Below are positions 11,056 to 31,267 of a DNA stretch of 64,000 bases, in pieces. The notes under the pieces were generated by a model, which worked only from the letters and a program-made list of their open reading frames with translations, did not search any database and was not told where the DNA came from. The stretch comes from Olsenella porci. GTDB lineage: Bacteria; Actinomycetota; Coriobacteriia; Coriobacteriales; Atopobiaceae. The DNA lies in the NCBI RefSeq assembly GCF_009695875.1, contig NZ_VUNC01000002.1, positions 310,001 through 374,000 on the forward strand, read 5' to 3'. The translations under genes were made by a program, and so were the position numbers. Within the stretch, counting starts at the first letter, position 1. Each line of letters begins with the position of its first letter.

Positions 11056-12264
11056 CTACGACAGCTTGATGCCCATGAGCCAGCCCCAGCGCGGGGTGAC
11101 CGTGGCGCCGTAGTAGCTGATCCAGGAGTTGATGTTGATGGTGCGGATGTAGCCGATGTTGTCCATCAGGTTGCCGCCGCCCACGTAGATGCCGATGTGC
11201 CCGTAGATCCTGCCCGCAGAGGTGTGCGGATGGGAGGACACCGCCACGATCATGCCCGGCTTGAGGTTTGACAGGTTGGAGCTGGTGCACCAGGCGTTGT
11301 ACATGTCGCACGCGTTGCCACTGGCGTAGCCGTAGCCGGCGTTGTTGAACACCTGCGACACCCACATGGCACAGAGCCCCGCGCCCGGCGAGGGCGTGGA
11401 CTTGCATGCGGCGATGACCTTTGCCTGCGAGCCCGTGGTGGTGCCGTCGCTGGTGCTGCCGGACACGCCGCTGGCTGCGGAGCCGCTTGACGAGCGTGAT
11501 GAGCCGGAGGACGAGCTGCTCTTGGACTTGGCGGCAGCCGCCGCGGCGGCCTTTGCGGCCGCCTCCTGCTTGGCCTTCTCCTCGGCCATGGCGGCGAGCT
11601 CGGAATCGCGCTTGTCCATGAGCTGCTTCACCTGCGAGCTGAGGCCGTCGATGACGTCCTGGACCTCCTGCTGCTTCTCCTGCATCTGCTTGAGCTGAGC
11701 CTTCTGGGTCTCGTTGAGCGACTCCAGCTCCGACTTCTGACTCTGGAGGTCGGCCTTCTGCTGGTCGAGCTCCGCCTTGGCGGACTTGACGTCCGCGATC
11801 ATCTGGCTGTCGGCCTCGCTGACCTTGTCCAGGTAGTAGATGTTTGAGTCGAGCTCCTGCAGGGAGCTGGAGTTGAGGAGGACCGAGAGGATGTCGACCC
11901 CGCCCGACTTGTAGGCGGAGGACACGCGCTTGCTAAGGCGCTCCTTCTTCTCGTCCAGCTCCTTCTGCTTGGCGTCGATGCTCTCCTGCGTCTGGTCGAT
12001 CTGGTCGTTGACCGACTCGATCTGGTCGAGCGTATCGGACTGCTTCTCTGAGAGCGCCTGGTACTCGTCCCCGATGGAGTCGAGCTGCTTCTGGACCTTG
12101 TCCAGCTGCGCCTGCGCGCTGGAGAGGTCCGAGTTGGTCTTGTCCACGTCGCTCTGCGAGACTGCGAGCGCCTGCCCGGGGAAGGTCCCGAGCATCCCCG
12201 CCGTGGCGGTGGCGCCCAGCAGGAACCTGATTGCCTGGCGACGCGTCATGCTATCGAATTCCAC
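11056..12264 (-). CDS. Secreted coiled-coil peptidoglycan hydrolase with NlpC/P60-CHAP-like domain
   Basis: 402 residues from a GTG at 12264 with AAGGGGA upstream (ATG at 12249 is possible). MTRRQAIRFLLGATATAGML looks like a twin-arginine-type signal, cleaved near QALA (residue 34). Residues 38-235 are a long coiled coil of the PcsB/CwlO type, then an Ala/Ser-rich linker (236-275). The C-terminal domain has Cys298 (GLCAMWVSQVF) and His356 (YGHIGIYVGGG), the expected Cys-His pair. Likely a septal or remodelling peptidoglycan amidase/endopeptidase whose coiled coil controls activity. The Tat route is inferred from the Arg pair. Confidence 0.85.
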   Translation of the reverse strand: MEFDSMTRRQAIRFLLGATATAGMLGTFPGQALAVSQSDVDKTNSDLSSAQAQLDKVQKQLDSIGDEYQALSEKQSDTLDQIESVNDQIDQTQESIDAKQKELDEKKERLSKRVSSAYKSGGVDILSVLLNSSSLQELDSNIYYLDKVSEADSQMIADVKSAKAELDQQKADLQSQKSELESLNETQKAQLKQMQEKQQEVQDVIDGLSSQVKQLMDKRDSELAAMAEEKAKQEAAAKAAAAAAAKSKSSSSSGSSRSSSGSAASGVSGSTSDGTTTGSQAKVIAACKSTPSPGAGLCAMWVSQVFNNAGYGYASGNACDMYNAWCTSSNLSNLKPGMIVAVSSHPHTSAGRIYGHIGIYVGGGNLMDNIGYIRTININSWISYYGATVTPRWGWLMGIKLS

Positions 12265-16092: not shown

Positions 16093-16686
16093 TCATCTCT
16101 CCCGCCCCCGTTGCGCCTGGACGGCGCGCACATAACTCTCGTCTCCTAGGAGCGCGCGGAAGCATCCGGCCGTCGCACGCGCATCCTCCAGGGCATTGTG
16201 CGGGGAGAACGCAATGCCGTAATGATGGGCAACGTCCTCCAGCCTCACCCATCCGCGGGAGCCACGGCCAGACCGACGCGGATGAACCCTCGCATACTCC
16301 CTCATTACGTCGAAGGTAATTTGCGGTGGCTGGGAGATGATCTCCTCGCACAGTAGAAACTTTAGGTCAAATATGAGGTTGAATCCGACGACCAAATGCC
16401 CATCTGACACAAAAGATGATACGACGTCGCTCAGCTCATCCGCGGTAGGAGCGTCCCAGACCATGGCGGGTGAGATGCCATTCACCCTTTGTGCCTGCGG
16501 CCACGCCTCATGGTGCCTCGGTCGAACGAGGCTGTTGAACAGCCTCCGCCCGTCGGAGTCCACGATTGCGAGCGACAAGAGTTCGTCATCCCACTCGGGA
16601 TGGAGTCCCGTGGTCTCGGTGTCGAGAATCACCGCGTCGACAAGCCCCACACCCGTCAGCGACCGGCAGACAGCGTCGATGTCCAT
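16093..16686 (-). CDS. DnaQ-family 3'-5' exonuclease
   Basis: 197 residues. Exo motifs: I = DTETTG at 22-27, II = VGFNLIFDLKFL, III = HNALEDARATAG, giving the DEDDh active site. No polymerase, BRCT or helicase domain is attached. The substrate could be RNA or DNA; such stand-alone DEDDh enzymes include oligoribonuclease-like and proofreading-like proteins. It is the last gene before the leader-distal end of the CRISPR array and has no evident tie to it. Confidence 0.85.
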   Translation of the reverse strand: MDIDAVCRSLTGVGLVDAVILDTETTGLHPEWDDELLSLAIVDSDGRRLFNSLVRPRHHEAWPQAQRVNGISPAMVWDAPTADELSDVVSSFVSDGHLVVGFNLIFDLKFLLCEEIISQPPQITFDVMREYARVHPRRSGRGSRGWVRLEDVAHHYGIAFSPHNALEDARATAGCFRALLGDESYVRAVQAQRGRER

Positions 16687-16937: not shown

Positions 16938-19900
16938 AGATCATCCCCGCGTATGCGGGGGGCACACGAGGTGATGGCTCGCCGCAGACCACGGCTCAGG
17001 ATCATCCCCGCGTATGCGGGGAGCACCTGTCGAACTCGCTGTCCGCGAGGTATGTGTCGGGATCATCCCCGCGTATGCGGGGAGCACGGGCGGCCCACTC
17101 CTGCCACGGCAGATTGTCTGGGATCATCCCCGCGTATGCGGGGAGCACCTCATCGAGAAGCACGGCGCTCCACGAGCGATGGGATCATCCCCGCGTATGC
17201 GGGGAGCACTTGAGCTTGTCCTTGACCCACGAAACCGCCGAGGGATCATCCCCGCGTATGCGGGGAGCACTGGCGAACGAGTGCGGGATAAGCCCATCGG
17301 CAGGGATCATCCCCGCGTATGCGGGGAGCACCTTGGTAATCTTGTCGTTCTTCAGCTCCACGAGGGGATCATCCCCGCGTATGCGGGGAGCACTGCCTCG
17401 TCCCTCTTGCGACAGGCCTCGGCCTCGGATCATCCCCGCGTATGCGGGGAGCACATAGAACGTCATGAAAACATGGTGTGGCTGTAGGGATCATCCCCGC
17501 GTATGCGGGGAGCACCTGTACGTCGGGCGCGGCTACGGCAAGACTGGGGGATCATCCCCGCGTATGCGGGGAGCACTCTACCCTCGGCGCGGGGCTGGCC
17601 TGCTACTGGGGATCATCCCCGCGTATGCGGGGAGCACTTTTTTGAAAAGCCCGAATCATGAGGTTGCGGGGATCATCCCCGCGTATGCGGGGAGCACCGG
17701 AACTTGAGATGGCGCTGTCGTCCAGGCCGGGGATCATCCCCGCGTATGCGGGGAGCACGGGGCCGGCGAGGTCACGGAGTACGCCCAGTCGGGATCATCC
17801 CCGCGTATGCGGGGAGCACACGGCGGTCTTCTTGGGGTATCCGGTGGTGTCGGGATCATCCCCGCGTATGCGGGGAGCACTCCAGTGCGTCGCTCCACTC
17901 GTAAAGGCACGCGGGATCATCCCCGCGTATGCGGGGAGCACCGGGCCTCGGTGGCGGCGTCCTCCCAGGTTACGGGATCATCCCCGCGTATGCGGGGAGC
18001 ACAAGTACAAGGGCGAGTTCCTGTACAAGGTAAAGGGATCATCCCCGCGTATGCGGGGAGCACATGTCCACGACGTAAGAATCGGAGATGAGGTAGGGAT
18101 CATCCCCGCGTATGCGGGGAGCACCACGTGCTCTTCTCCAAGGAGCCCGAGGCGGAGGGATCATCCCCGCGTATGCGGGGAGCACCCGGAGTTGAGGAAC
18201 TCGGTGAATCCCGCGTCGGGATCATCCCCGCGTATGCGGGGAGCACACCACCGACGTGACGTGCGGTTACTGCAGGCGGGGATCATCCCCGCGTATGCGG
18301 GGAGCACATCACGGTCGGCAAGAGCGCAGATGGCAAGACGGGATCGTCCCCGCGTATGCGGGGAGCACGGGCACTCGCCAGTCGGCTCGTACTGCGGAAT
18401 GGGATCATCCCCGCGTATGCGGGGAGCACCACTACCTGCTCAACGACGATATCTCTAGCCCGGGATCATCCCCGCGTATGCGGGGAGCACTCGATTCGCT
18501 GGTACGACGAGCGCGAGCCGTGGGGATCATCCCCGCGTATGCGGGGAGCACCTTGGCATCGGGCGCGAGCTTTACACGGCTCCGGGATCATCCCCGCGTA
18601 TGCGGGGAGCACCGACGCGCCCAGTTCCGAATCGTGTCTAGGTGGGGATCATCCCCGCGTATGCGGGGAGCACTCCCACATGTGGGAGATGCCGGACCGC
18701 GACGGGGGATCATCCCCGCGTATGCGGGGAGCACGCGGTCACGTCATAGCCACGCACGTCGAGGGAGGGATCATCCCCCGCGTATGCGGGGAGCACGACG
18801 CCGAGACGGCTGCGACAAACCTCGCGCAGGGATCATCCCCGCGTATGCGGGGAGCACCCGCTATGCTCGGAGATGTACTCGGCCAGTGCGGGATCATCCC
18901 CGCGTATGCGGGGAGCACTCTCGGCGATACTGGGCCACGCCAGCGCGTCGAGGATCATCCCCGCGTATGCGGGGAGCACTCGAGCCGTCCCGTGGGTATG
19001 TCATCCCCGAAGGGATCATCCCCGCGTATGCGGGGAGCACGCGCGACTGCCGTTGTCCGTCCACTGCTGCACGGGATCATCCCCGCGTATGCGGGGAGCA
19101 CAGCTTGGGTGGAGCAACGACAAGCTGCAGTCGTGGATCATCCCCGCGTATGCGGGGAGCACGGGAGCCAGAGATTTCGCAGGTCACACGGTCAGGGATC
19201 ATCCCCGCGTATGCGGGGAGCACCGTGAGGTCATACCCTAGCGCGTCGGCACACTGGGATCATCCCCGCGTATGCGGGGAGCACCTCAAGGTTCCGAGCC
19301 CGGAGGAAGCTCGGGAGGGATCATCCCCGCGTATGCGGGGAGCACAAGACCACGTGGGAGCACGCGGTTGACTACCCGGGATCATCCCCGCGTATGCGGG
19401 GAGCACTCACCACGGCCGAGGACTCGCGCCCGCAGCTTAGGATCATCCCCGCGTATGCGGGGAGCACCGAAACCTTTATAGCCCCTCTTCGGAGGGGCTG
19501 GGATCATCCCCGCGTATGCGGGGAGCACTCGATGACGCCTCCTCCGCCGTGTCTCCGGCTAGGATCATCCCCGCGTATGCGGGGAGCACACGGTGTTGAT
19601 GTGGACGGTGGAGGTGCGACCGGGATCATCCCCGCGTATGCGGGGAGCACTTGTCCCTTCACCCCAGGTATCCTCATCGTCGAGGATCATCCCCGCGTAT
19701 GCGGGGAGCACGGCTCAAAGACCGTGGTCTCCGGCGAGAGGGCGGGATCATCCCCGCGTATGCGGGGAGCACTGGGCAAGCGGCATTTTCAAGGAAGGGA
19801 CGTTGGGATCATCCCCGCGTATGCGGGGAGCACTATATCTCCCCGCCGATTACCACCTCGGCGGAGGGATCATCCCCGCGTATGCGGGGAGCACGTTGCG

Positions 19901-21541
19901 ACTTTCATCGCGTCGAGATGCTGGACGGGATCATCCCCGCGTATGCGGGGAGCACCTGACGTTGCCCTTGGAGGCGTTCGCGCTGCCGGGATCATCCCCG
20001 CGTATGCGGGGAGCACCGATTACAAGAATCAGTCGCTGCAAAAGACCAGGGATCATCCCCGCGTATGCGGGGAGCACGGCAGGCCACGGTGGGCGGCAGG
20101 CCGTGCGCCGGGATCATCCCCGCGTATGCGGGGAGCACGGAGCCAAAAGTGCCTGCCGGTCCTCTCGCTCGGGATCATCCCCGCGTATGCGGGGAGCACA
20201 CTGGCAAGTATGCGGACGTGAGCGGGGGAACGGGATCATCCCCGCGTATGCGGGGAGCACGAGATCGTGGAGGGCGAGCGCGACGACACCCTGGGATCAT
20301 CCCCGCGTATGCGGGGAGCACTTGACGAGGTTCTCGGCAACGCTCACGAACTCGGGATCATCCCCGCGTATGCGGGGAGCACGACGTGGAATTTGCCGAA
20401 TCCGCGAATGGCCCAGGATCATCCCCGCGTATGCGGGGAGCACACTGGGGACTTGCGCATGGAGGGACGGCGGACGGGATCATCCCCGCGTATGCGGGGA
20501 GCACCTGTCTCGCCCCGCGTTCCGCGAATCGCGCCTGGGATCATCCCCGCGTATGCGGGGAGCACTTACCTGACATGCGTTAAGGCGCGTTGAAACGGGG
20601 ATCATCCCCGCGTATGCGGGGAGCACTGCCGCGAGACTCCCAGGTGCTGGGATATGTAGGGATCATCCCCGCGTATGCGGGGAGCACTGAACCTCGTCCA
20701 CGAACCTGCGGCACCATCCGGGATCATCCCCGCGTATGCGGGGAGCACCGTGCCAGCCCGCGCGCCGCCGATGAGAGTGCGGGATCATCCCCGCGTATGC
20801 GGGGAGCACCGGGCTTCGTGAGAATCACGATTCCGCTCTGCGGGATCATCCCCGCGTATGCGGGGAGCACGACGCGGAGACGGCAGCAACTAACCTTGCG
20901 CAGGGATCATCCCCGCGTATGCGGGGAGCACCCCACGTGGTTACGCCATTGGCAATGGTCGGAGGGATCATCCCCGCGTATGCGGGGAGCACCCCTTGAG
21001 GTCGAGGCACTTGCCCGTCTGGCGGGGATCATCCCCGCGTATGCGGGGAGCACCACGCATTGCAGCACCTGTGAGCAGCACGACAGGGATCATCCCCGCG
21101 TATGCGGGGAGCACCTCTACGTCAACCTCGAGATCCAGGGCGAGGAGGGATCATCCCCGCGTATGCGGGGAGCACTCAGCAGCATGGCGTCGCAGGTTGC
21201 CGTATGGGGGATCATCCCCGCGTATGCGGGGAGCACTCCCATACCTCACATGTGCCGCCGTTGCGGCTGGGATCATCCCCGCGTATGCGGGGAGCACTCG
21301 AGAGCACCCACGCGAGGGCCATGCACAACGGGATCATCCCCGCGTATGCGGGGAGCACGAGGTCGAGGAGGGCTACTACGAGTTCCGTCCGGGATCATCC
21401 CCGCGTATGCGGGGAGCACTGGTGGCCCACCTCACGCGCTTTTCGGGCGGGAGGATCATCCCCGCGTATGCGGGGAGCACCATATATACTCGCGCGCGAG
21501 GCGGCTGGTATGGGGATCATCCCCGCGTATGCGGGGAGCAC
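16938..21541 (-). CRISPR. Type I-E CRISPR array, 76 repeats and 75 spacers
   Basis: A 28-base repeat, on the transcribed (minus) strand GTGCTCCCCGC-ATAC-GCGGGGATGATCC, recurs every 61 bases. Counting by eye gives 76 repeats from 16938 to 21541, with every spacer 33 bases long. The stem CCCCGC/GCGGGG fits Cas6e recognition. Variants: the leader-distal first repeat (16938-16965) has two changes, the one at 18341 has one change, and the one at 18768 has an inserted C. The cas genes lie to the right on the minus strand and cas2 ends 69 bases from the last repeat, so the right end is leader-proximal and newest. Decay at the left end supports this direction. Confidence 0.98.
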
Positions 21542-21610
21542 ACTTAACGACCAGCAGAATCATATCCCATTTCAACGAAAGTCATTCGGTTTTCAAGGTT
21601 CGCCTCAAAA
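21542..21610 (-). promoter_or_regulatory. Probable CRISPR leader
   Basis: The 69 bases between cas2 and the first leader-side repeat are clearly AT-richer than the genes around them and include AACCTTGAAAACCG and GGGATATGATT on the minus strand, a possible -10 TATGAT. I cannot identify a convincing -35 or IHF site. The leader may extend into the cas2 3' end because the gap is short. Confidence 0.6.
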
Positions 21611-21970
21611 CTAGTTTCCGAACTTTCTTGCCTGCCGATACTTCGATGCGCGGCTCCACCCCTTGGGAGGAGAGCCGAATATCGTCGCATCCTCGGTACC
21701 CCTCGGGCGTCTCACAAGCTCTATCCCCTCGCAGTCGATCGGCTCCCAGTCCGGTTGCCACACCTTGAAGGCAAGGTGCTGCTCGTTTGGATACGAGTAC
21801 GCCATCGTCGCCCGCCCGGTCTTGATGAGCGCGAGCACGCGGTCCCAGAGGGCCTCCCTCACCCTAGCCGAGACGTCACCTACGAACACCCCGGGGGATA
21901 TCTCCATCAGCCAGCGCGTCAGGTCGCCGCGCAGCCCAGTAGGGCAGGCGGTGAGCACGATGACCACCAT
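21611..21970 (-). CDS. cas2: Cas2e, adaptation protein
   Basis: 119 residues: MVVIVLTACPTGLRGDLTRW and ISPGVFVGDVSARVREALWD are diagnostic of the E. coli-type Cas2. With Cas1 it forms the integrase complex that inserts prespacers at the leader end. The C-terminal tail SRASKYRQARKFGN is basic. Starts 24 bases after cas1 stops; last cas gene before the array. Confidence 0.96.
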   Translation of the reverse strand: MVVIVLTACPTGLRGDLTRWLMEISPGVFVGDVSARVREALWDRVLALIKTGRATMAYSYPNEQHLAFKVWQPDWEPIDCEGIELVRRPRGTEDATIFGSPPKGWSRASKYRQARKFGN

Positions 21971-21994: not shown

Positions 21995-22966
21995 TCAGCC
22001 CTCTCTATATGACTTACCTGCCGGAACCTCTCCAACCTTCTCGTCCCAGAGCCCGACGTGATCGATGGATGGATCCACGCACTCTGCATCCTCCGTCTCA
22101 AGGAGAAGCGACTTGATGTCACCTACCATCCTCGGCATGATCTCGAGGCTGTAGACCGCGTCCCTCATCTTTCTCCTGGTCTCCGCACCAACGTCCACGG
22201 GGAACTCCGCCACGGTCTCGAATGCCACCGGGATGGAGATCTCAGCCTTGTACAGGTCGGCAACGTCATACACAAAGGAGCGCTCGTGGCCCGTGTGCAC
22301 GAACCCGAGACCCGGGGAGCATCCCATCGCAACAATTGCCGCATGCGCGAGGCCGTACATACAGGCATGCGCCGCAGAAAGAGCCTGGTTGATCTCGGTC
22401 CCCTCGTCAAAGTCGTCCGGGTTGTACGTCCTCTTGTCCCAGAAGACGCCCGTCTTCTCCGAGCACTCCTTGTAAACCTTGCGGATGCGAGCCCCCTCGC
22501 GGCCACGCAGTTGCTGCATGGTGAGGCCGCTCACGTCCTCGCCGGGGAACCTCATCGCATACATCCTGCGCGCCACGGCGAGCCTCGACCTGGTGTTGGA
22601 GACAAGCTTGGCCTGTCGCTGCAGCAGCGCGCTTGAGTGGGTGAGCGGACTGCCGAACGCGTACATGCGCACGCCCCTCTCCCCCACCCAGATCACGGAG
22701 GCACCGCTCTCGCCTATTACGGTCATGGCATCATGGGTGACCGTCGCCCCAGGTCCGAGCATGAGCACGCTCAGCCTTGCGGACGGGACGTAAATTGTTC
22801 CCTCCTCGTCCGTGACCGTGATTGCGTTGTCGGAGCGGTTGACCTTGCAATGCTCAAAGTACAGGAACGATATCCTGTCCTCCACCCGCACCAGCTCCGA
22901 AATGTCAGGGGGAGGGGCTCCCCTCCGACTCGATGCGCCCCTAGCAGACCCATTTGAATCGGACAT
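21995..22966 (-). CDS. cas1: Cas1e integrase
   Basis: 323 residues. The Cas1 metal site is present: Glu in QQLRGREGARIRKVY, His in GFVHTGHERSFVYDVADLYK and the Asp pair in that stretch. ISFLYFEHCKVNRSDNAITV is the type I-E N-terminal domain. A Gly/Ser/Ala/Arg-rich N-terminal extension (about 20 residues) precedes it. Catalyses spacer integration with Cas2. Confidence 0.96.
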   Translation of the reverse strand: MSDSNGSARGASSRRGAPPPDISELVRVEDRISFLYFEHCKVNRSDNAITVTDEEGTIYVPSARLSVLMLGPGATVTHDAMTVIGESGASVIWVGERGVRMYAFGSPLTHSSALLQRQAKLVSNTRSRLAVARRMYAMRFPGEDVSGLTMQQLRGREGARIRKVYKECSEKTGVFWDKRTYNPDDFDEGTEINQALSAAHACMYGLAHAAIVAMGCSPGLGFVHTGHERSFVYDVADLYKAEISIPVAFETVAEFPVDVGAETRRKMRDAVYSLEIMPRMVGDIKSLLLETEDAECVDPSIDHVGLWDEKVGEVPAGKSYREG

Positions 22967-23006: not shown

Positions 23007-23696
23007 CTAGCGGGTGGGCATGATGGTCAGGAGGCCGCAGCCGAACCCCTTCGCCCTCCCGATTCCGAACCCCAGGGCATGCCTGAAGGCGTCGGCGTCC
23101 TCAACCCGCAGAACCCCGTCGTAGACCGCCGTGCAGATCGTTACGTCACTTCCCTCTCGCCTCGAGCGCTCCGTGCGCCGTTGCGAGACGCTGACTTGGA
23201 CGAATCCATCCTTGTCCACGACCAGGGAGAAGCCGTGGCTTCCCGACCTGTCCTCTAGCCACTTGAGCTGTTGCTCGACGGTGACGTGACCCTGCACCTT
23301 TCCGATTACCTTTGGGTTCTTTGACCTCCTGCCAAGGTCAGCCTTCACCTTTCGGGCGGGGTTCGCCTTGAGGCGGAACCGCCAGACCTGCCCGTCACCA
23401 ACCCGATCGAGGAGAGGACCGTAGTCCTTCGTCTCCCAGCCAGGGTTTGTCGGCCATCCGCACTGCTCGACGATGTGGGAGAAGTCCGGTCTCTCCGGGC
23501 TCACGACGTACAGCCATACGCCCTCCTCGCTCCTCGGGGACTGGTCGATGCGCCAGAGGATCCGCCCCTCCTCGCACTCCCTTGTGGCACAAGGAGGAAA
23601 CGACGCCTCGACGGCTGCGTGCATGCGGTATGGGGAGCTCACGAGCCTGAGCGCGCCACGCCTCTCCACGTTAAGTGGAAGTCGAGAGATATACAC
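23007..23696 (-). CDS. cas6e: Cas6e (CasE) pre-crRNA endoribonuclease
   Basis: 229 residues. MYISRLPLN start, the probable catalytic His in SPYRMHAAVEASF, and the C-terminal glycine-rich loop FGIGRAKGFGCGLLTI are typical of Cas6e. It cuts at the base of each repeat hairpin and stays bound to the crRNA 3' handle in Cascade. Sits between cas5 and cas1 with a 16-base gap to cas5. Confidence 0.95.
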   Translation of the reverse strand: MYISRLPLNVERRGALRLVSSPYRMHAAVEASFPPCATRECEEGRILWRIDQSPRSEEGVWLYVVSPERPDFSHIVEQCGWPTNPGWETKDYGPLLDRVGDGQVWRFRLKANPARKVKADLGRRSKNPKVIGKVQGHVTVEQQLKWLEDRSGSHGFSLVVDKDGFVQVSVSQRRTERSRREGSDVTICTAVYDGVLRVEDADAFRHALGFGIGRAKGFGCGLLTIMPTR

Positions 23697-23712: not shown

Positions 23713-24444
23713 TTAGAAGAATCCCATGGGATCGTGCCCGCCGGGAAGGATGGCTCCGCTTGCCTGCGGGGAGGCGGCTATCGCAGGTTCCGCACCCGGC
23801 AGCGAGTCGATGGGCACCCTGAACCTAACGATGCGCCTGCTCGCATACCTGCGGCACGCGTACCCAAAGCTGACGGGGAGATCCGGCTGCTCGAACCCAG
23901 CCTCCCCCTCCCCCGCATCGCAGAGGGCCTCCAGCTCGACGCGTCCCGAGCGCTCCCGATACCAGTCCGCCGCAATCCAGGGGTGGCGGCGGAGCGCGTC
24001 TCGCACGCCCGAGTAGTCCTCTGACAGCCCGAGGCAGACCGGCTCGTCGGGAGGGCACGAGCGCCTCCCCAGGAACAGGGGCCACACCGGGGCACTGATA
24101 GCTCGCTCCAACTCCTCCAGCAGGGCCTCGTCACCACCGAGGGCCACAAGGAACTTTGCATCGGAGAGGTAATAGCGGTACGAGAGGGGCATCGCCTTTC
24201 CGCCGTCTGAGGGACGCTCCGTCTGGAAGTCGCACAAGACGCTCCCGGACTGGTCGACGCGGACACCGAACTCGAGGGCTACCAGGTCGCTCAAGTCGTC
24301 CTCGCGGGAGCGGCCGAGTGCCGATGCGAGCATGCCAACCACTCCGCTCTTGGTTGGCTCCTGGCGGGTGTCCCTGCGAACGAAGCGGGAGGAGTCGCCC
24401 CACGACTGGAGCGGACCCGAGAACCTCAGGAGCAGGACGCTCAT
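23713..24444 (-). CDS. cas5e: Cas5e (CasD), Cascade 5'-handle subunit
   Basis: 243 residues starting MSVLLLRFSGPLQSWGDSSR followed by TRQEPTKSGVVGMLASALG, the canonical Cas5e opening. RRIVRFRVPIDSLPG appears near the C-terminus. Overlaps cas7 by four bases (ATGA), a sign of coupled translation. Binds the 5' handle of the crRNA and caps the Cas7 backbone. Confidence 0.96.
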   Translation of the reverse strand: MSVLLLRFSGPLQSWGDSSRFVRRDTRQEPTKSGVVGMLASALGRSREDDLSDLVALEFGVRVDQSGSVLCDFQTERPSDGGKAMPLSYRYYLSDAKFLVALGGDEALLEELERAISAPVWPLFLGRRSCPPDEPVCLGLSEDYSGVRDALRRHPWIAADWYRERSGRVELEALCDAGEGEAGFEQPDLPVSFGYACRRYASRRIVRFRVPIDSLPGAEPAIAASPQASGAILPGGHDPMGFF

Positions 24445-25580
24445 GCCTCCTCACCCTCGGAGAGGAGACCGAGAACCGCTTCCTTGACCGCATCGTAGAG
24501 CTGGGGACAGTCAACCTGCTGCCCAAACTCCTCGAGCGCCTCGTCACCGCCATCGACGGCGCACCACCATGCCTTTGCGGGACGCTGCCCGTACATGTCC
24601 GCCATCCTGTTGAGCTGCTTAGCAAGCAGACCCTCCGCCTGGGACGAGATGGACTCCCCCTCCTTCGGAGCGACGGGGCTCTCGAAGGCACCGACGCCAT
24701 TGATGGGCTGCTCCTCCCTCAGAGCGACGAGCACTGCGGACGGAAGCGTCCTGTTCGCGAAGGTGTTCTGCTTCCCCGTGGGCATGGACTCCACGAACGC
24801 ACGGACGAACGCACGTGCACCCTCCGCCGTGGCAGCATCGTCGCCAAGCTGCTCGCGCAGTGACGCCACGTTGACCGTCGCGTAGCGATACAGCGTGGAC
24901 GAGTTGTAACCCAGCGTGTCCAGCATCGCGGCTCCGGCATTGTCAGACGAGACGCAGTCGTCCACCGCCGTGAAGTAGTCGTACTCCTGCGACACCTTGT
25001 TCACCGAGATTGCATGAGCCACCTGGGCGGATGCGTCCGTGTTGAGGTCGGGGGCGTCGGCGAGCATGCGACCGAAGAGGGCGATGTCGAGGGCCTGCTG
25101 CCCGTGGAAGGCGGAGGAGACCTTCTTCTTGAGGTCCTTCGACGGCTTCGAGAGGTCTTCCCCAGCTTCATGGGCGTCGATAGCGATGCGAGCGAGCTTG
25201 TCTATCTCTCGCCTCCCGATGAAGATGAGGTACTGCGAGACTTGCGAGCCCTTGTCGGAACCTGCGCGCTTCGACTCCCCCACCTTCACGCCCGTGGTGG
25301 AAAGGACGCCCATCGCCAGCCTCTCGGCAGAGTCGGAGAGGTCGGGGCGCTGTGCCTTGATGCTCTCCCCAATCAGACCCACCGCGTGCTTAGTCCTGTA
25401 CCCGAGGTTCTCCGCATCCACGAAGTGGGAGAAGTTCTCCCTCATCGCGTGCTTCCACGCCTGGCTCGACACCCGAGCGCGCTGGTACCCGCCATAGACC
25501 GCCGTCTTCGGAGATCCAGTATCGTCCCTGTTGATGTTGCTGGGCGGGACAACCTGCAAAACGTTGATGTCAAGATACAT
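24441..25580 (-). CDS. cas7e: Cas7e (CasC), Cascade backbone subunit
   Basis: 379 residues from the ATG at 25580 (MYLDINVLQVVPPSNINRDD) with GGAGGTAATC upstream. SPKTAVYGGYQRARVSSQAW is the signature of type I-E Cas7. Six copies line the crRNA in Cascade. Length is in line with E. coli CasC (363 residues). Lies 17 bases after cse2 and overlaps cas5. Confidence 0.96.
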   Translation of the reverse strand: MYLDINVLQVVPPSNINRDDTGSPKTAVYGGYQRARVSSQAWKHAMRENFSHFVDAENLGYRTKHAVGLIGESIKAQRPDLSDSAERLAMGVLSTTGVKVGESKRAGSDKGSQVSQYLIFIGRREIDKLARIAIDAHEAGEDLSKPSKDLKKKVSSAFHGQQALDIALFGRMLADAPDLNTDASAQVAHAISVNKVSQEYDYFTAVDDCVSSDNAGAAMLDTLGYNSSTLYRYATVNVASLREQLGDDAATAEGARAFVRAFVESMPTGKQNTFANRTLPSAVLVALREEQPINGVGAFESPVAPKEGESISSQAEGLLAKQLNRMADMYGQRPAKAWWCAVDGGDEALEEFGQQVDCPQLYDAVKEAVLGLLSEGEEA

Positions 25581-25597
25581 GATTACCTCCACTCTCG

Positions 25598-26245
25598 TTA
25601 CTGGCGGACGCTTGCGGCCCCATCCTCCGAGGTCGCTGACTTGACGGGTGCGTAGTAGTCCCTCGCCCAGTTGAGGAAGACCCCCTCGCGAGCAGACTCG
25701 AACTGCAGGAGGAACAGGTCCCGGGCGAGCGCACCGTAGTCGAGCTGGACGTCCTTCGCCCTCATCTGCCTCACGAGCGCACGCACGCAGGTCTCCACGC
25801 CACGGAAGTCCCCCGACGCGGCTTCGACGCTCGCCAGGCGCCTCCTGACCCCCGGAGCCCCATCCTCATTTTGATTGCCAAGCGTGATGAGGCGGCATGC
25901 CCTGCCAAAGCGCCCCGAGTGCTCCCCTCCCGTTTTAGGGAAGACCGCCATCGGATGGTCCTTGGACTGCTGGTGAATCGAATAGAGCTTGAGGGAGGCC
26001 CTAATGCTGAGAAGGGCCTTGTCCTCCACCGACCTCCCCATCCCAAGGTCGGGGAGGTCGGAGAACACCTCCTCACCGACGACCATCCAAGATCCCCCGC
26101 CGGGGGCGTCCAACTTCCTCAGGCGGGCCATCGTTGCCCTCGCGGGTGCCAACCCCTGGAGATAGGCGCTCTGGAGCCTCCCGACCTTAGCGTTGACGCA
26201 CCGGCCAACCTCTCTGGAGGCAACGCTGATGCTTTGCATCCCCAT
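25598..26245 (-). CDS. cse2: Cse2 (CasB), Cascade small subunit
   Basis: 215 residues from the ATG at 26245, which overlaps the cse1 stop (TGATG); a GTG immediately before is possible. LAPARATMARLRKLDAPGGG, DKALLSIRASLKLYSIHQQS and GRACRLITLGN match the Cse2 family. A dimer of this protein stabilises the R-loop non-target strand. Confidence 0.92.
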   Translation of the reverse strand: MGMQSISVASREVGRCVNAKVGRLQSAYLQGLAPARATMARLRKLDAPGGGSWMVVGEEVFSDLPDLGMGRSVEDKALLSIRASLKLYSIHQQSKDHPMAVFPKTGGEHSGRFGRACRLITLGNQNEDGAPGVRRRLASVEAASGDFRGVETCVRALVRQMRAKDVQLDYGALARDLFLLQFESAREGVFLNWARDYYAPVKSATSEDGAASVRQ

Positions 26246-28005
26246 CACATCCCCTCACTCAAAGTCGCTGACCCAACCGTCTTGGAGGAGTCCTTCTCCT
26301 TGTACAGGGGGCTCAGGGCCTTGTTAAGGGACGCCCTGAAGATCGCGTCTGCCTTGCCCACGGTCATCCCCCTGTCCGACTTCTTGTCCTCGGGCTTCTC
26401 GTAGCGCTCGGCGAAGAGGGACGGCGCGCATTCGCGGAGGTATTCACCCTCGAGCGCGAGCAGCGTACTTCGGATCTCCGCACGCCATTCGATGCAGTAC
26501 TCGTCGATGACGGTGTCGCCGTCGCCCGGGAAGTGCGCAATCCTGTCCCTGCAGAGGTGGTCGATCTCACCGAAGGCCTGCGCCCGAACGTAGGACGACT
26601 TGACCCTAGCCCTGTCCTTCGCGCTCTTGTCTCCCGAGGCCCTCTGAACGTTTCGAACGAACCTGACGAGCAGCTCCACTGCCTCGTCGGCCTGCGCTAT
26701 CACCTTCAAGGAACCCGAGCACGCTCGCGAATCATGGCACAGGAGGGCACTGCTGACGTCCAGGATGTCATCGACCCCGTCCTCGAACACGCTCGACTGC
26801 GTTCCGTAGCTCATCCCCTGGGCGTGGATGGCAACGTAGGGGAGGGTCTCCCTCGGCAGGATTTCCTCCTCCTGAAGAAGCTCCGCCCAACGCACCACGC
26901 CCGGGCGACAATCCTCGCTCCCCTCCTCCTTGGAAACGACTGCGGAGAGGCCACGCCAAATTGCACGCTCGGAATCGTGAGCCCTCGGCATTAGAGGGGC
27001 GGAGGGAAGGCCAAGCTTCTTCTGCTGGGCCTCGCTCTTCCTCCAGGCGGTCATCGGTTCGGCATCGGCGCCATTGACGATTGAGGGGATGTCCCCGTAG
27101 CAGCTGACCACCCCAACCACGCGCTGCCCGGTCTCGTCAAAGACGAGCCTCATCCTTCTGCTCTGCCACGTATACGCACTCACGGGGTCATTGGGATTGC
27201 CAGTTGTCGCGGGAACGAGGTCCGGCGTAGTCTCGTCCGCCTCCCACGAGGGAATGCCTGCGGCATTCCCACAGATGAGGTGACCGTTCTTCCGCTTCTC
27301 GTCGAAGAGTACCCAGTTGAGCATCAGGGTCTGGAAGAGGTTCTCCCCTTCCAGGAAAACCCCTCCCTCGGCACCCAACAGCCCCGTTCCGACCGAACCC
27401 TTGGGCGCATACACCTTCCCGCTCTTGACGTGGCTGTTACCCACCACCGGTGTCTTGATTCCAGCAGGAGCGTAACTCTGCTGGAAAATGAGCCAGCGGA
27501 CTCCCTCTGCAAGCGAGAGGCTAGAAATCGTCCCTCTCGCCCTCATCGAGAAAAGGAACTTCTCCGGCTTCGGGACGTCCGCCACCAGCTCGTCAACACC
27601 GTCCGGTTCCTTCCCCACATACTCAAGATCAGGAACCTGGTAGAAGGGGTGCGAGGGATCGTCCAGGTAGAAGCGATCACTGAAGTAATCCAGGTACCTC
27701 CTGATGTCATCCATGTCGAACTTGCCCGCAATCCAGAGACTGTGCCAGAGATCGAGAACATCCTTCTTGCCCAGCACGCCCCCATCCGCGGCCGAAGGCG
27801 AGTTCGCTCGATACAGAATCGCCAGCAGCAGCCGCACTATGGGGAGCTCCTGCATCGGGACATCACCCTGGATTCTTCGAATGCTGGCAGCCCTGTCGAA
27901 AACATCGACCATCGAGAGCTCGCCCCTGCTCCCATCTAGGTAGATGACTGGTATCCATGGGTCAGTTGCGATGCTGAACGCCACCCTCGCGTCCGTCTCG
28001 TCCAT
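26245..28005 (-). CDS. cse1: Cse1 (CasA/Cas8e), Cascade large subunit
   Basis: 586 residues from the ATG at 28005, which follows a very strong GGGAGGGAGGAAGA site; earlier in-frame codons run through the repeat-like element and lack a site. FSIATDPWIPVIYLDGSRGE, VDVFDRAASIRRIQGDVPMQ, and the central LIFQQSYAPAG region are typical. It recognises the PAM and recruits Cas3. Somewhat longer than the E. coli protein (502). First gene of the cse1-cas2 unit, separated from cas3 by 157 bases. Confidence 0.95.
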   Translation of the reverse strand: MDETDARVAFSIATDPWIPVIYLDGSRGELSMVDVFDRAASIRRIQGDVPMQELPIVRLLLAILYRANSPSAADGGVLGKKDVLDLWHSLWIAGKFDMDDIRRYLDYFSDRFYLDDPSHPFYQVPDLEYVGKEPDGVDELVADVPKPEKFLFSMRARGTISSLSLAEGVRWLIFQQSYAPAGIKTPVVGNSHVKSGKVYAPKGSVGTGLLGAEGGVFLEGENLFQTLMLNWVLFDEKRKNGHLICGNAAGIPSWEADETTPDLVPATTGNPNDPVSAYTWQSRRMRLVFDETGQRVVGVVSCYGDIPSIVNGADAEPMTAWRKSEAQQKKLGLPSAPLMPRAHDSERAIWRGLSAVVSKEEGSEDCRPGVVRWAELLQEEEILPRETLPYVAIHAQGMSYGTQSSVFEDGVDDILDVSSALLCHDSRACSGSLKVIAQADEAVELLVRFVRNVQRASGDKSAKDRARVKSSYVRAQAFGEIDHLCRDRIAHFPGDGDTVIDEYCIEWRAEIRSTLLALEGEYLRECAPSLFAERYEKPEDKKSDRGMTVGKADAIFRASLNKALSPLYKEKDSSKTVGSATLSEGM

Positions 28006-28162
28006 TCTTCCTCCCTCCCGATTAACGTTCGACGTAACCAACCCCCGCAAATGCGGGGAACACACGAACCCGTTGACCACCTATGGGTCACCCCCCGGAA
28101 TCAATTCCTCAGAACCAGGAACGGGGGAATACCAACCTCCTTTCTCTTGGTTTGATTCTATT
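28006..28162 (-). promoter_or_regulatory. Regulatory gap between cas3 and cse1
   Basis: 157 noncoding bases inside an otherwise tightly packed cluster. They hold, in transcription order, AAAGGAGG with no start codon after it, an AT-rich patch, a near-palindrome GGAAT-TG-ATTCC (28108-28097), the repeat-like stem, and the cse1 ribosome site. Likely holds a separate promoter or post-transcriptional control for the Cascade/adaptation genes; I could not fix a convincing -35/-10 pair. Confidence 0.5.
28036..28063 (-). repeat. Isolated CRISPR-repeat-like element upstream of cse1
   Basis: On the minus strand GTGTTCCCCGC-ATTT-GCGGGGGTTGGTT matches 19 of 28 positions of the array repeat and keeps the full CCCCGC/GCGGGG stem and the GTG start. 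It lies 31 bases before the cse1 start codon and has no second repeat beside it. It is in the same orientation as the array repeats. See finding on cas autoregulation. Confidence 0.85.
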
Positions 28163-28191
28163 TCAATTAGGTTGTGAAAGGGTTGGTATTC
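28127..28191. repeat. 11-bp inverted repeat at the cas3 3' end
   Basis: GAATACCAACC at 28127-28137 and GGTTGGTATTC at 28181-28191 are exact reverse complements, 43 bases apart, straddling the cas3 stop codon (28163-28165). The same core GGTTGGT also occurs in the tail of the repeat-like element at 28036-28063. Could be an RNA stem separating cas3 from cse1 messages, or an operator pair. Confidence 0.7.
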
Positions 28192-31100
28192 TACGAACGG
28201 TCGATAGCCCATCGCGACGGGTGTATCGAAGCTCATTTCCAAGAACGGTCGCCTCGAACGACCCATCATCCATCTCCCTCATGGGAAGAAGGAGCCTCCC
28301 AGCAAGCCACGGGGAGTCCTGCCAGGCGTAAACGTATCTCCCGCACTTCTCCTCGAGTTCCCCGATGCACTTGTCCTCGAGGGAGACAGGACATACCGAG
28401 AGGGGAAGCCTGACGGCGCACTGGGCAATGAGTCGCGCCAATGCCGGGCGAGGCTCCTCGTACGTTGGGATCTCCTCCCCAGCTTCTACCCCCGAATACG
28501 ACACCCAGGGCAGGAGCGAGATTCCCCCTCCGTCGCACTCCCTCACGAGAAGGACCTCGATAGACTCCTGCGTGTCTCGAACGGCACGCTGGCCACGATC
28601 CTCGTCCCCTCTCACCTGGTTGTGGGAAGCAAGGGATGACAGACGAGACTGATCGCGAACGAGCTCCTTAACGTCAGAGAGGAGGTATGTCTTCGCCCTA
28701 TTCGTCTTTTCCACCTCCTTGGACTCCCTCGCCGCACAGCCCTTCTGGTACTCCTCACGCCAACGCTCGGGGATATATGCCGAGATATTGCGAGAGTAGG
28801 CGGTCCTCACGAGGCGGGGGATATCGTTGGGAAGGGAGACTTCCATCCTCGAACCGGCATCGACGAGTCCGAGAACTGCGAGCGATTCCAGAGTCGAAGC
28901 TTTCTGGTATACAAACGTGATGCTCTTGGAGACGCTGGGGACGCCATCCTCCCACTCCTCGATGCCACGAATGAAGCACTCTGCCGAGCGGAGCTTCTCG
29001 GGACGGCTCGACTCCCCCTCCCCCCTTTGGTGCCTGTGCATCCTTCCCAACCTCTGCAACAGCAGGTCAATGGGGGCGACATCGGTCACCAGCACGTCGA
29101 AATCGATGTCGAGCGACTGTTCGAGCACCTGCGTGCCGACGACGATGGACAGCACGGGTCGTCTGCCGTTCTCCCGAGTCGCATCTCGCCCAAGCCGAGA
29201 CCTCAGCTCCTTTTCGTTCTCCATCCTGTCCAGGTCCATGAACCTGGAGTGGTCGAGCGAGACGACGTCCCTCCCGAACGAGTTTGAAAGCGCCTTCGCA
29301 ACCTCCTGCGCCCTCGAGACCGTATCGCAGATGACCCCAGCGCAACCGCCTCCGGAGAGCCTCTCGGAGAGAAGCGACGCCAGCGTGTCCAGTTCGTCGT
29401 CGATGAGCGAGAGCGCAACGTCCACGCAACGACCGGACGCCTCGGTCTCAAGCGTCTTCGACGCTGTGCCATCGGTATAGGTGATCAGGGGATAGGCATC
29501 CAATCTCGCCTCGGGAATGAGCGACGCAACACCTTGCTGCGTCGGAGGCGGAGCGCCAGTGGACTTCTTCCTAGACCCAGACAGGTACGCCGGGACGAAC
29601 CTTCTTTTCGACGAATCGGAAGCGTTTGGGTTTGTAAGGCTCTCCGACGCCTTCCAACCGCACAGGTACCAGTCGGTCATCTGCCTGCGAAGGTCACTCG
29701 GGAGCGTCGCGGAGAGGAGAATGACGGGCGTATGCCAGTAGCCGAGCCACTGGAGGACCCTGAAGAGGTACTGACGCATGTAGAGGTCGTAGGCATGGCA
29801 CTCGTCGATGATCACGACCTTGCCCGCGACGGAAAGCTGCCTGAGTGGCAGGTGTCTCATGTCAAGCGCCGCCATCAGGACCTGGTCAACGGTGCAGACC
29901 ACGAAGTTCGAGAGCATACCTTTCTTGCGGCCGAACATCCAGTCTGACGCGACGACGTGCTCTTGCATGGAGAGGCCAGTGGCCTTCCCCAACCGCTCGG
30001 CAGACGCCACGGAATTGAAGCCATCCTCCCCGCTCGCATGGACGATGCCTTGGAACTTCTCGTTGAGCTGAGCCTTTCCGTGAGCGAGGTAGATGCTCTT
30101 CTCGGGGATCCCTGGGTCTTGCGGAAGACGCTCGAGCCAGTACTCGACCCTCGCGAACATCGCATCCGTCGTCGCCATGGTGGGAAGCGCAATGCAGACG
30201 CCCGCTGCGCCGGTACGGACGGCAAGGACCTCCGCGGCAGCAAGGGCACCCTCCGTCTTCCCCTCTCCCATCGGAGCTTCGATGATAATCAGGCCGGGCT
30301 CCTTCGTCTCCAACGCGATATGCATTGCAGCACTCTGAATTGGACGGGGAGATGCGCCGGCCGGAAGCGAGAAGCGCTTGGAGAAGAACTCGTCGAATGG
30401 CTTCACCTTCGGCATCGGCTCCCTCCAGGCGGGGGTGAGGGAGACGCGATGCCAGCCGGTGGACTCGCGGTCATCAAAGTCGATGCGCCTCTCCCCCGCA
30501 TCCATGAGCTGGACGAGGGGATAGAAGTCCTCGTCGCTCGCAATCCAGTCGCACATGGTGACGAGGCCCGTAACCAGGCACGCCGTCGCCGCAGGAAGCG
30601 GGACGGAGGATAGCTTCTGCAGATCCGAGTCGGTTAGCCCCGAGATTGCGAGACAGAAACGAATCAGCTCCTCTTGAACCTTGGGCCAGTCGTCCACGCA
30701 ATCGTCCGCGCTACCGATTGCAACCATATTGCTGGGGTCCATGTCAAAGCCGACGATACCCTGGAAGTTCCCGTGGTGGGCACCAACGACATCGGCATAG
30801 GAGAGAGCAACGCTCCTCTCCCATCCATAGTCTTGGAGTGCCTTGGTGAGGAGGTACTCCCCCGCGACGGGGTGCGTCGGCTTGCTTCTGCTCCCAAGAT
30901 CATGCCGCACGGGCAGACCTGCGTGCTCCACCATCCAGACAAGACCCCCGCCGCTGGCGCCGAAGTGAGGACGAATGCCCTTCGCCTGGAAGATGGGGGT
31001 CGCCTTGCCGATATCATGGGCGCTTCCAAGGAAGATGCAGACGCGTCTCGCAAGACCCTGGTCCCCATCCAGGGGCCGAGAAATTGCCTTCCTCAGGCAC

Positions 31101-31267
31101 TCGGAAAGCCACTCGTCCCAGAGGTGCGAGATGACAGAGGCAGAGTCGGCCATGTGGACGTAGAGCGGAAGCCACCTCTCACCAATCCCGTAGTCAGACT
31201 TCCCCCAAATCGATCGGGCCTGTTTTGAGAGGCCCTTGACTTTCTCTACTGGCGACACCTTGCCCAC
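28163..31267 (-). CDS. cas3: Cas3 helicase-nuclease
   Basis: 1034 residues with an HD nuclease domain then an SF2 helicase. HD motif AHDIGKATP (His84-Asp85), THPVAGEYLL and GAHHGNFQG supply the nuclease metals. Helicase: Walker A APMGEGKTEG (about 331-340), DECHAY (motif II), LLSATLP (motif III) and LLQRLGRMHRH (motif VI). It degrades target DNA after Cascade forms an R-loop. Full length, no frameshift. Encoded first in the cluster, in its own unit upstream of the 157-base gap. Confidence 0.96.
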   Translation of the reverse strand: MGKVSPVEKVKGLSKQARSIWGKSDYGIGERWLPLYVHMADSASVISHLWDEWLSECLRKAISRPLDGDQGLARRVCIFLGSAHDIGKATPIFQAKGIRPHFGASGGGLVWMVEHAGLPVRHDLGSRSKPTHPVAGEYLLTKALQDYGWERSVALSYADVVGAHHGNFQGIVGFDMDPSNMVAIGSADDCVDDWPKVQEELIRFCLAISGLTDSDLQKLSSVPLPAATACLVTGLVTMCDWIASDEDFYPLVQLMDAGERRIDFDDRESTGWHRVSLTPAWREPMPKVKPFDEFFSKRFSLPAGASPRPIQSAAMHIALETKEPGLIIIEAPMGEGKTEGALAAAEVLAVRTGAAGVCIALPTMATTDAMFARVEYWLERLPQDPGIPEKSIYLAHGKAQLNEKFQGIVHASGEDGFNSVASAERLGKATGLSMQEHVVASDWMFGRKKGMLSNFVVCTVDQVLMAALDMRHLPLRQLSVAGKVVIIDECHAYDLYMRQYLFRVLQWLGYWHTPVILLSATLPSDLRRQMTDWYLCGWKASESLTNPNASDSSKRRFVPAYLSGSRKKSTGAPPPTQQGVASLIPEARLDAYPLITYTDGTASKTLETEASGRCVDVALSLIDDELDTLASLLSERLSGGGCAGVICDTVSRAQEVAKALSNSFGRDVVSLDHSRFMDLDRMENEKELRSRLGRDATRENGRRPVLSIVVGTQVLEQSLDIDFDVLVTDVAPIDLLLQRLGRMHRHQRGEGESSRPEKLRSAECFIRGIEEWEDGVPSVSKSITFVYQKASTLESLAVLGLVDAGSRMEVSLPNDIPRLVRTAYSRNISAYIPERWREEYQKGCAARESKEVEKTNRAKTYLLSDVKELVRDQSRLSSLASHNQVRGDEDRGQRAVRDTQESIEVLLVRECDGGGISLLPWVSYSGVEAGEEIPTYEEPRPALARLIAQCAVRLPLSVCPVSLEDKCIGELEEKCGRYVYAWQDSPWLAGRLLLPMREMDDGSFEATVLGNELRYTRRDGLSTVRRIPTLSQPN

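Follow-up and report, generated by a model that had tools for sequence, protein, structure and literature searches.

How can one CRISPR array come to hold the same stretch of coding sequence twice, in two spellings that leave the encoded peptide untouched? This question is raised by the window analysed here, a stretch of 64,000 nucleotides from Olsenella porci, in whose array two spacers, s30 and s64, both read DAETAATNLAQ. An earlier note on this DNA had taken the pair as a single site of one conserved protein gene that was sampled twice, from diverged phages or plasmids, and had offered the peptide as a query for the target family. Here we trace the two spacers to their target and ask what the position of the PAM in the genetic code means for such sites.

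Results

The array is the only one in the genome to carry its 28-base repeat (75 matches with at most three mismatches), and it stands beside a complete cas3-cse1-cse2-cas7-cas5-cas6e-cas1-cas2 set that forms one locus on the - strand (Table 1); seven subunits, cas2e among them, exceed the cut-offs of type I-E or generic cas3 models. The repeats recur with a period of about 61 bases and 72 of the 74 spacers are 33 bases long, as is characteristic of type I-E. The system resembles type I-E of E. coli in its gene set and gene order, in the 28-29-base repeat, 61-base period and 33-base spacers, and in a first spacer base that is derived from the PAM, but differs from it in the PAM itself, which is AAC here and usually AAG in E. 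coli. The leader end is on the right and a degenerate terminal repeat lies at 16938-16965; spacers are numbered from this trailer end, and the spacer beyond the degenerate repeat is not counted.

Seventy-three of the 75 repeats are exact copies of one another. Small departures are seen at 18341-18368, which reads ATCG in place of the ATCA of a set that is otherwise nearly all identical, and at 18769-18796, the repeat just ahead of s30 on + coordinates, which has an extra C (ATCCCCCGCG). Immediately beside the array, at its trailer end, positions 16093-16686 of the - strand encode a stand-alone DEDDh 3'-5' exonuclease-like protein (PF00929, 4.7e-19). Prespacers are trimmed by DnaQ-like exonucleases in some type I-E systems, and this protein is a possible candidate for a role in acquisition.

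Table 1. Features of the CRISPR-cas locus, in positions of the window
Feature	Position	Strand	Remarks
Type I-E CRISPR array, 75 repeats	16938..21541	-	Repeats and spacers; crRNA strand -
Spacer s30, older of the pair	18797..18829	-	+ strand reads DAETAATNLAQ; crRNA antisense to phage gene
Spacer s35	19102..19134	-	Same tape measure gene and strand as s30 and s64, target 74 bases from their site; 1 mismatch
Spacer s64, newer than s30 and closer to the leader	20871..20903	-	+ strand reads DAETAATNLAQ
Probable leader	21542..21610	-	Inferred by position only, between array and cas2
cas2e	21611..21970	-	TIGR01873 1.2e-15, PF09707
cas1e	21995..22966	-	TIGR03638 4.4e-110
cas6e (cse3/casE)	23007..23696	-	TIGR01907
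cas5e (casD)	23713..24444	-	TIGR01868
cas7e (casC/cse4)	24441..25592	-	TIGR01869
cse2 (casB)	25598..26248	-	TIGR02548
cse1 (casA)	26245..28080	-	TIGR02547
cas3 (helicase and HD nuclease)	28163..31267	-	TIGR01587 and TIGR01596 above cut-off

Both spacers of the pair are 33 bases long and are flanked by 28-base copies of the repeat; s30 reads GACGCCGAGACGGCTGCGACAAACCTCGCGCAG and s64 reads GACGCGGAGACGGCAGCAACTAACCTTGCGCAG. They are identical at 28 of 33 positions, for which the chance, computed over all spacer pairs, is ~6e-9, and they differ at positions 6, 15, 18, 21 and 27. Direct reading bears out the earlier description in each of its parts: both encode DAETAATNLAQ in the same phase, every one of the five base differences is a third codon position, and the two lie 34 spacers apart, as numbers 30 and 64. 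The probability that five differences all fall on one codon phase, taken over six frames, is ~0.012. When all spacers of the array were compared with one another, no second pair matched over the full length.

A degenerate pattern covering all codon spellings of DAETAATNLAQ was scanned over 2.9 million IMG/VR viral contigs, where it occurred in two only, IMGVR_UViG_3300044562_000005 and 3300044564_000006, with an identical site in both; the same pattern, sought in 84,980 genome species and also in 396 genomes from the class, was found in the window's own array alone. The all-codon search led to one gene family in one frame, that of a tail tape measure protein of 1265 residues in which the site occupies codons 275-285. 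This protein matches PF10145 (PhageMin_Tail) at 1e-18 and tape measure PHROGs (13339, 1293, 1272) at 1e-72, and its gene lies downstream of that for the major tail protein; tape measure genes are expected between the major tail and distal tail genes. The contig 3300044564_000006 (39,924 bases; the 39.9-kb contig below) also carries genes for terminase, portal, head protease, major head and tail proteins, endolysin, integrase and primase-helicase, and its gene content assigns the target of s30 and s64 to a temperate HK97-like siphophage. The nearest named relatives of the tape measure protein, at 57-59% identity, belong to prophages of Lancefieldella rimae and Atopobium fossor, both of them Atopobiaceae of the Coriobacteriia; this fits the class in which the phage source had been expected.

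With one residue left free, the site was present in five further virus records. In place of DAETAATNLAQ, related phages have DADTAATNLAQ or DASTAATNLAQ. Aligned related phages read DADTAATNLAQFA or DASTAATNLAQFA at the site, and the near forms DADTAATNLAQF or DASTAATNLAQF occur in further phages, with AAC or AAT as the PAM in each. Two lineages of this phage group come from a single metagenome (IMGVR 3300044564_000006 and _000005), each with the tape measure site and an AAC PAM, which means that diverged lineages co-occur in one sample. A nucleotide search of the INPHARED phages with s30 and s64 gave short chance matches only, and an exact protospacer for either spacer was absent from IMG/VR, the 84,980 genomes and INPHARED, the nearest having 3 and 5 mismatches.

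Both spacers map to positions 11775-11806 of the 39.9-kb contig, antisense to the gene, s30 with three mismatches and s64 with five, all of them silent. A shared PAM had been proposed as a check on the pair, and both spacers indeed sit on one protospacer, on a common strand and with AAC in common, as expected of two independent acquisitions of one site; protospacers in unrelated genes or in different frames, the outcome named as speaking against it, were not what we found, both spacers falling on this one tape measure site.

The pair belongs to a much larger set. Twenty-seven of the 74 spacers match the 39.9-kb contig with at most seven mismatches, against 0 in a reversed-sequence control, and two of them, s9 and s47, match it exactly. 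The PAM is AAC in 16 of these 27 matches and AAN in 20, and C stands at the PAM-derived base of 66 of the 74 spacers; as in type I-E, the PAM is consistent, lies on the 5' side of the protospacer and contributes its last base to the array. So many spacers on a single 39.9-kb contig are the record of a long conflict with one phage group. Mismatches in coding regions, taken over all matches, number 21 at first, 9 at second and 49 at third codon positions (P 1e-7). The silent-only differences between s30 and s64 are thus the purest form of a pattern seen across the array, whose spacers were taken from relatives of the 39.9-kb phage that had drifted under purifying selection. The matches lie on both strands of the contig and mostly in structural genes (7-19 kb). 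Along the array, clustering of the phage matches was not significant (runs P 0.17), and mismatch number showed no significant trend with spacer age (P 0.14-0.17).

The PAM of the s30/s64 site is written by codons. The antisense AAC is the complement of G-TT, which spans a Gln codon CAG and a Phe codon TTy (CAG-TTy), and because Phe has TTy codons only, the AA of the PAM is immune to silent loss. The third positions that separate s30 from s64 vary among independent phage lineages as well. In the frame of the two spacers, wobble bases stand at crRNA positions 3, 6, 9 and so on. In type I-E of E. coli, every sixth position is flipped out and unread, and the seed consists of positions 1-5 and 7-8 (PMC5904413, PMC12871591). 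As crRNAs, s30 and s64 differ at positions 6, 12, 15, 18 and 27; with multiples of six unread, two read differences (15 and 27) are left, neither of them in the seed. If mismatch tolerance is E. coli-like, as we assume for these crRNAs by carrying it over from that system, s30 should still recognise the phage of s64 and s64 that of s30, if only well enough for priming.

This arrangement, with wobble bases at multiples of three (the wobble-at-3n frame), extends beyond the one site. By the E. coli rules, half of its wobble bases would fall on the unread multiples of six and only position 3 would lie in the seed. The premise of a coupling between PAM and codon frame is that, where third positions are GC-rich, a PAM starting with AA would occur mostly in the frame in which amino acids fix the AA. 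The coding regions of the 39.9-kb contig have 64% of their AAC sites and 71% of their AAG sites in the wobble-at-3n frame. For other phages, the share of AAC sites in this frame is 0.93, 0.68, 0.52 and 0.22 at GC3 of 0.91, 0.75, 0.64 and 0.14, and AAC and AAG together span 0.88-0.93 at GC3 0.91 and 0.11-0.22 at GC3 0.14. We also compared the 39.9-kb contig with four related phage contigs, 73-76% identical to it over the aligned parts. The AA of the PAM was kept between lineages at 67-75% of AAC sites in the wobble-at-3n frame versus 3-9% in the other frames, and AA together with an intact seed at 16-25% versus 0%; the four contigs are akin to one another, so a pooled P overstates the evidence, and the contrast is present in each lineage.

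Among the spacers of the array, 18 of 23 coding matches are in the wobble-at-3n frame, which is no enrichment beyond the AAC background (P 0.10), and wobble mismatches at multiples of six showed no enrichment either (16 vs 21). A seemingly strong excess of spacers in this frame (15 of 16 with an AAN PAM) was dropped, P being 0.10 with the 23 coding matches and cleaner gene models; limiting the count to matches that keep their PAM biases it towards the very same frame. The data show frame coupling as a property of the PAM and of base composition, and not as a trait under selection.

Discussion

Our results argue that s30 and s64 are, in all probability, separate type I-E acquisitions of the same AAC-flanked tape measure protospacer, made from two diverged lineages of one temperate siphophage group. 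The double sampling from diverged phages that had been proposed for the pair therefore stands, and with a tape measure gene as the target the plasmid half of that proposal falls away. We infer the two source lineages from the silent differences between the spacers, no exact protospacer being present in the collections searched. On this reading, s30 would have been taken from one lineage and s64, at least 34 acquisitions later, from another; the site would have been open on both occasions, with the AA of its PAM written by the conserved Gln-Phe pair behind DAETAATNL. As its two readable mismatches (15, 27) lie outside the seed, s30 would still see the phage of s64, and s64 was perhaps acquired while s30, or another spacer, was directing interference or priming.

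Does the return to one site call for a special cause? The 39.9-kb contig has 794 AAC sites on its two strands, and when 17 to 27 spacers are drawn at random, a site is shared by chance with P 0.16-0.36; this chance rises if loss of the PAM from one lineage to another is frequent among the sites. Given 27 spacers against the phage lineage and this probability, the repeated site needs no hot spot. We therefore consider it rather unlikely that acquisition has a true hot spot here, or that a mismatched s30 led Cas3 to a newer phage by priming and the same spacer was renewed. The sequences of s30 and s64 would allow it, with only two readable mismatches outside the seed, work on E. coli makes recognition and priming plausible (PMC5904413, PMC12871591), and the target of s35 is close by on the same strand; however, chance sharing is already likely, the strands of the matches are mixed without obvious grouping, and many other spacers were equally able to lead acquisition. 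The array data do not separate naive from primed acquisition (runs P 0.17).

Two further explanations would dispense with separate phage lineages. Tape measure proteins are repetitive in places, and one phage genome with paralogous copies of the motif could have supplied both spacers in one infection; this is very improbable, as the site is single in each phage contig read and s30 and s64 are 34 acquisitions apart. Least credible is a single acquisition that was duplicated within the array and then mutated: recombination between repeats can duplicate spacers in CRISPR arrays and is a recognised route to spacer copies, but where 73 of 75 repeats are exact, a single spacer with five changes would stand out, each change would need to leave the product of a phage gene unaltered (P 0.012), the neighbouring spacers are without duplicates, and the same third positions vary in independent phage lineages.

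As two acquisitions from separate phage lineages, the s30/s64 pair is a new example of a known phenomenon and a matter of ordinary CRISPR bookkeeping. Type I-C of Legionella pneumophila has been reported to take up one protospacer twice, independently (PMC5071653); the source there was one plasmid in a laboratory experiment, whereas the array described here drew on two diverged natural phage lineages. For the reading of wobble bases, the closest comparison is with the VIPR systems (preprint PMC13142463), whose authors note that skipped target bases generally meet the wobble positions of codons, so that escape by silent change would be made harder. The guide of VIPR is itself non-contiguous; in the type I-E system here, unlike VIPR, skipped positions take up only half of the wobble bases, and their alignment arises from the PAM and base composition. 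We found no remark on skipped bases and wobble positions for type I-E in the open-access collection searched, which omits many subscription journals. That type I-E immunity is built through such frame coupling to withstand silent drift of its targets, resampling the same coding sites, is a tentative idea that we hold to be conceivable but doubtful.

In summary, a target can be named for a large array of Atopobiaceae type, over a third of whose spacers were drawn by one temperate siphophage group, and the PAM of its type I-E system is fixed as AAC. The s30/s64 site is a clear example from nature of coding constraint that keeps the PAM and lets the protospacer change only silently, and it illustrates how a CRISPR target site can be preserved by the genetic code. 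The general question of phage escape from type I-E by silent mutation thereby becomes testable on defined sites, and the codon frame of the PAM may have a bearing on immunity.
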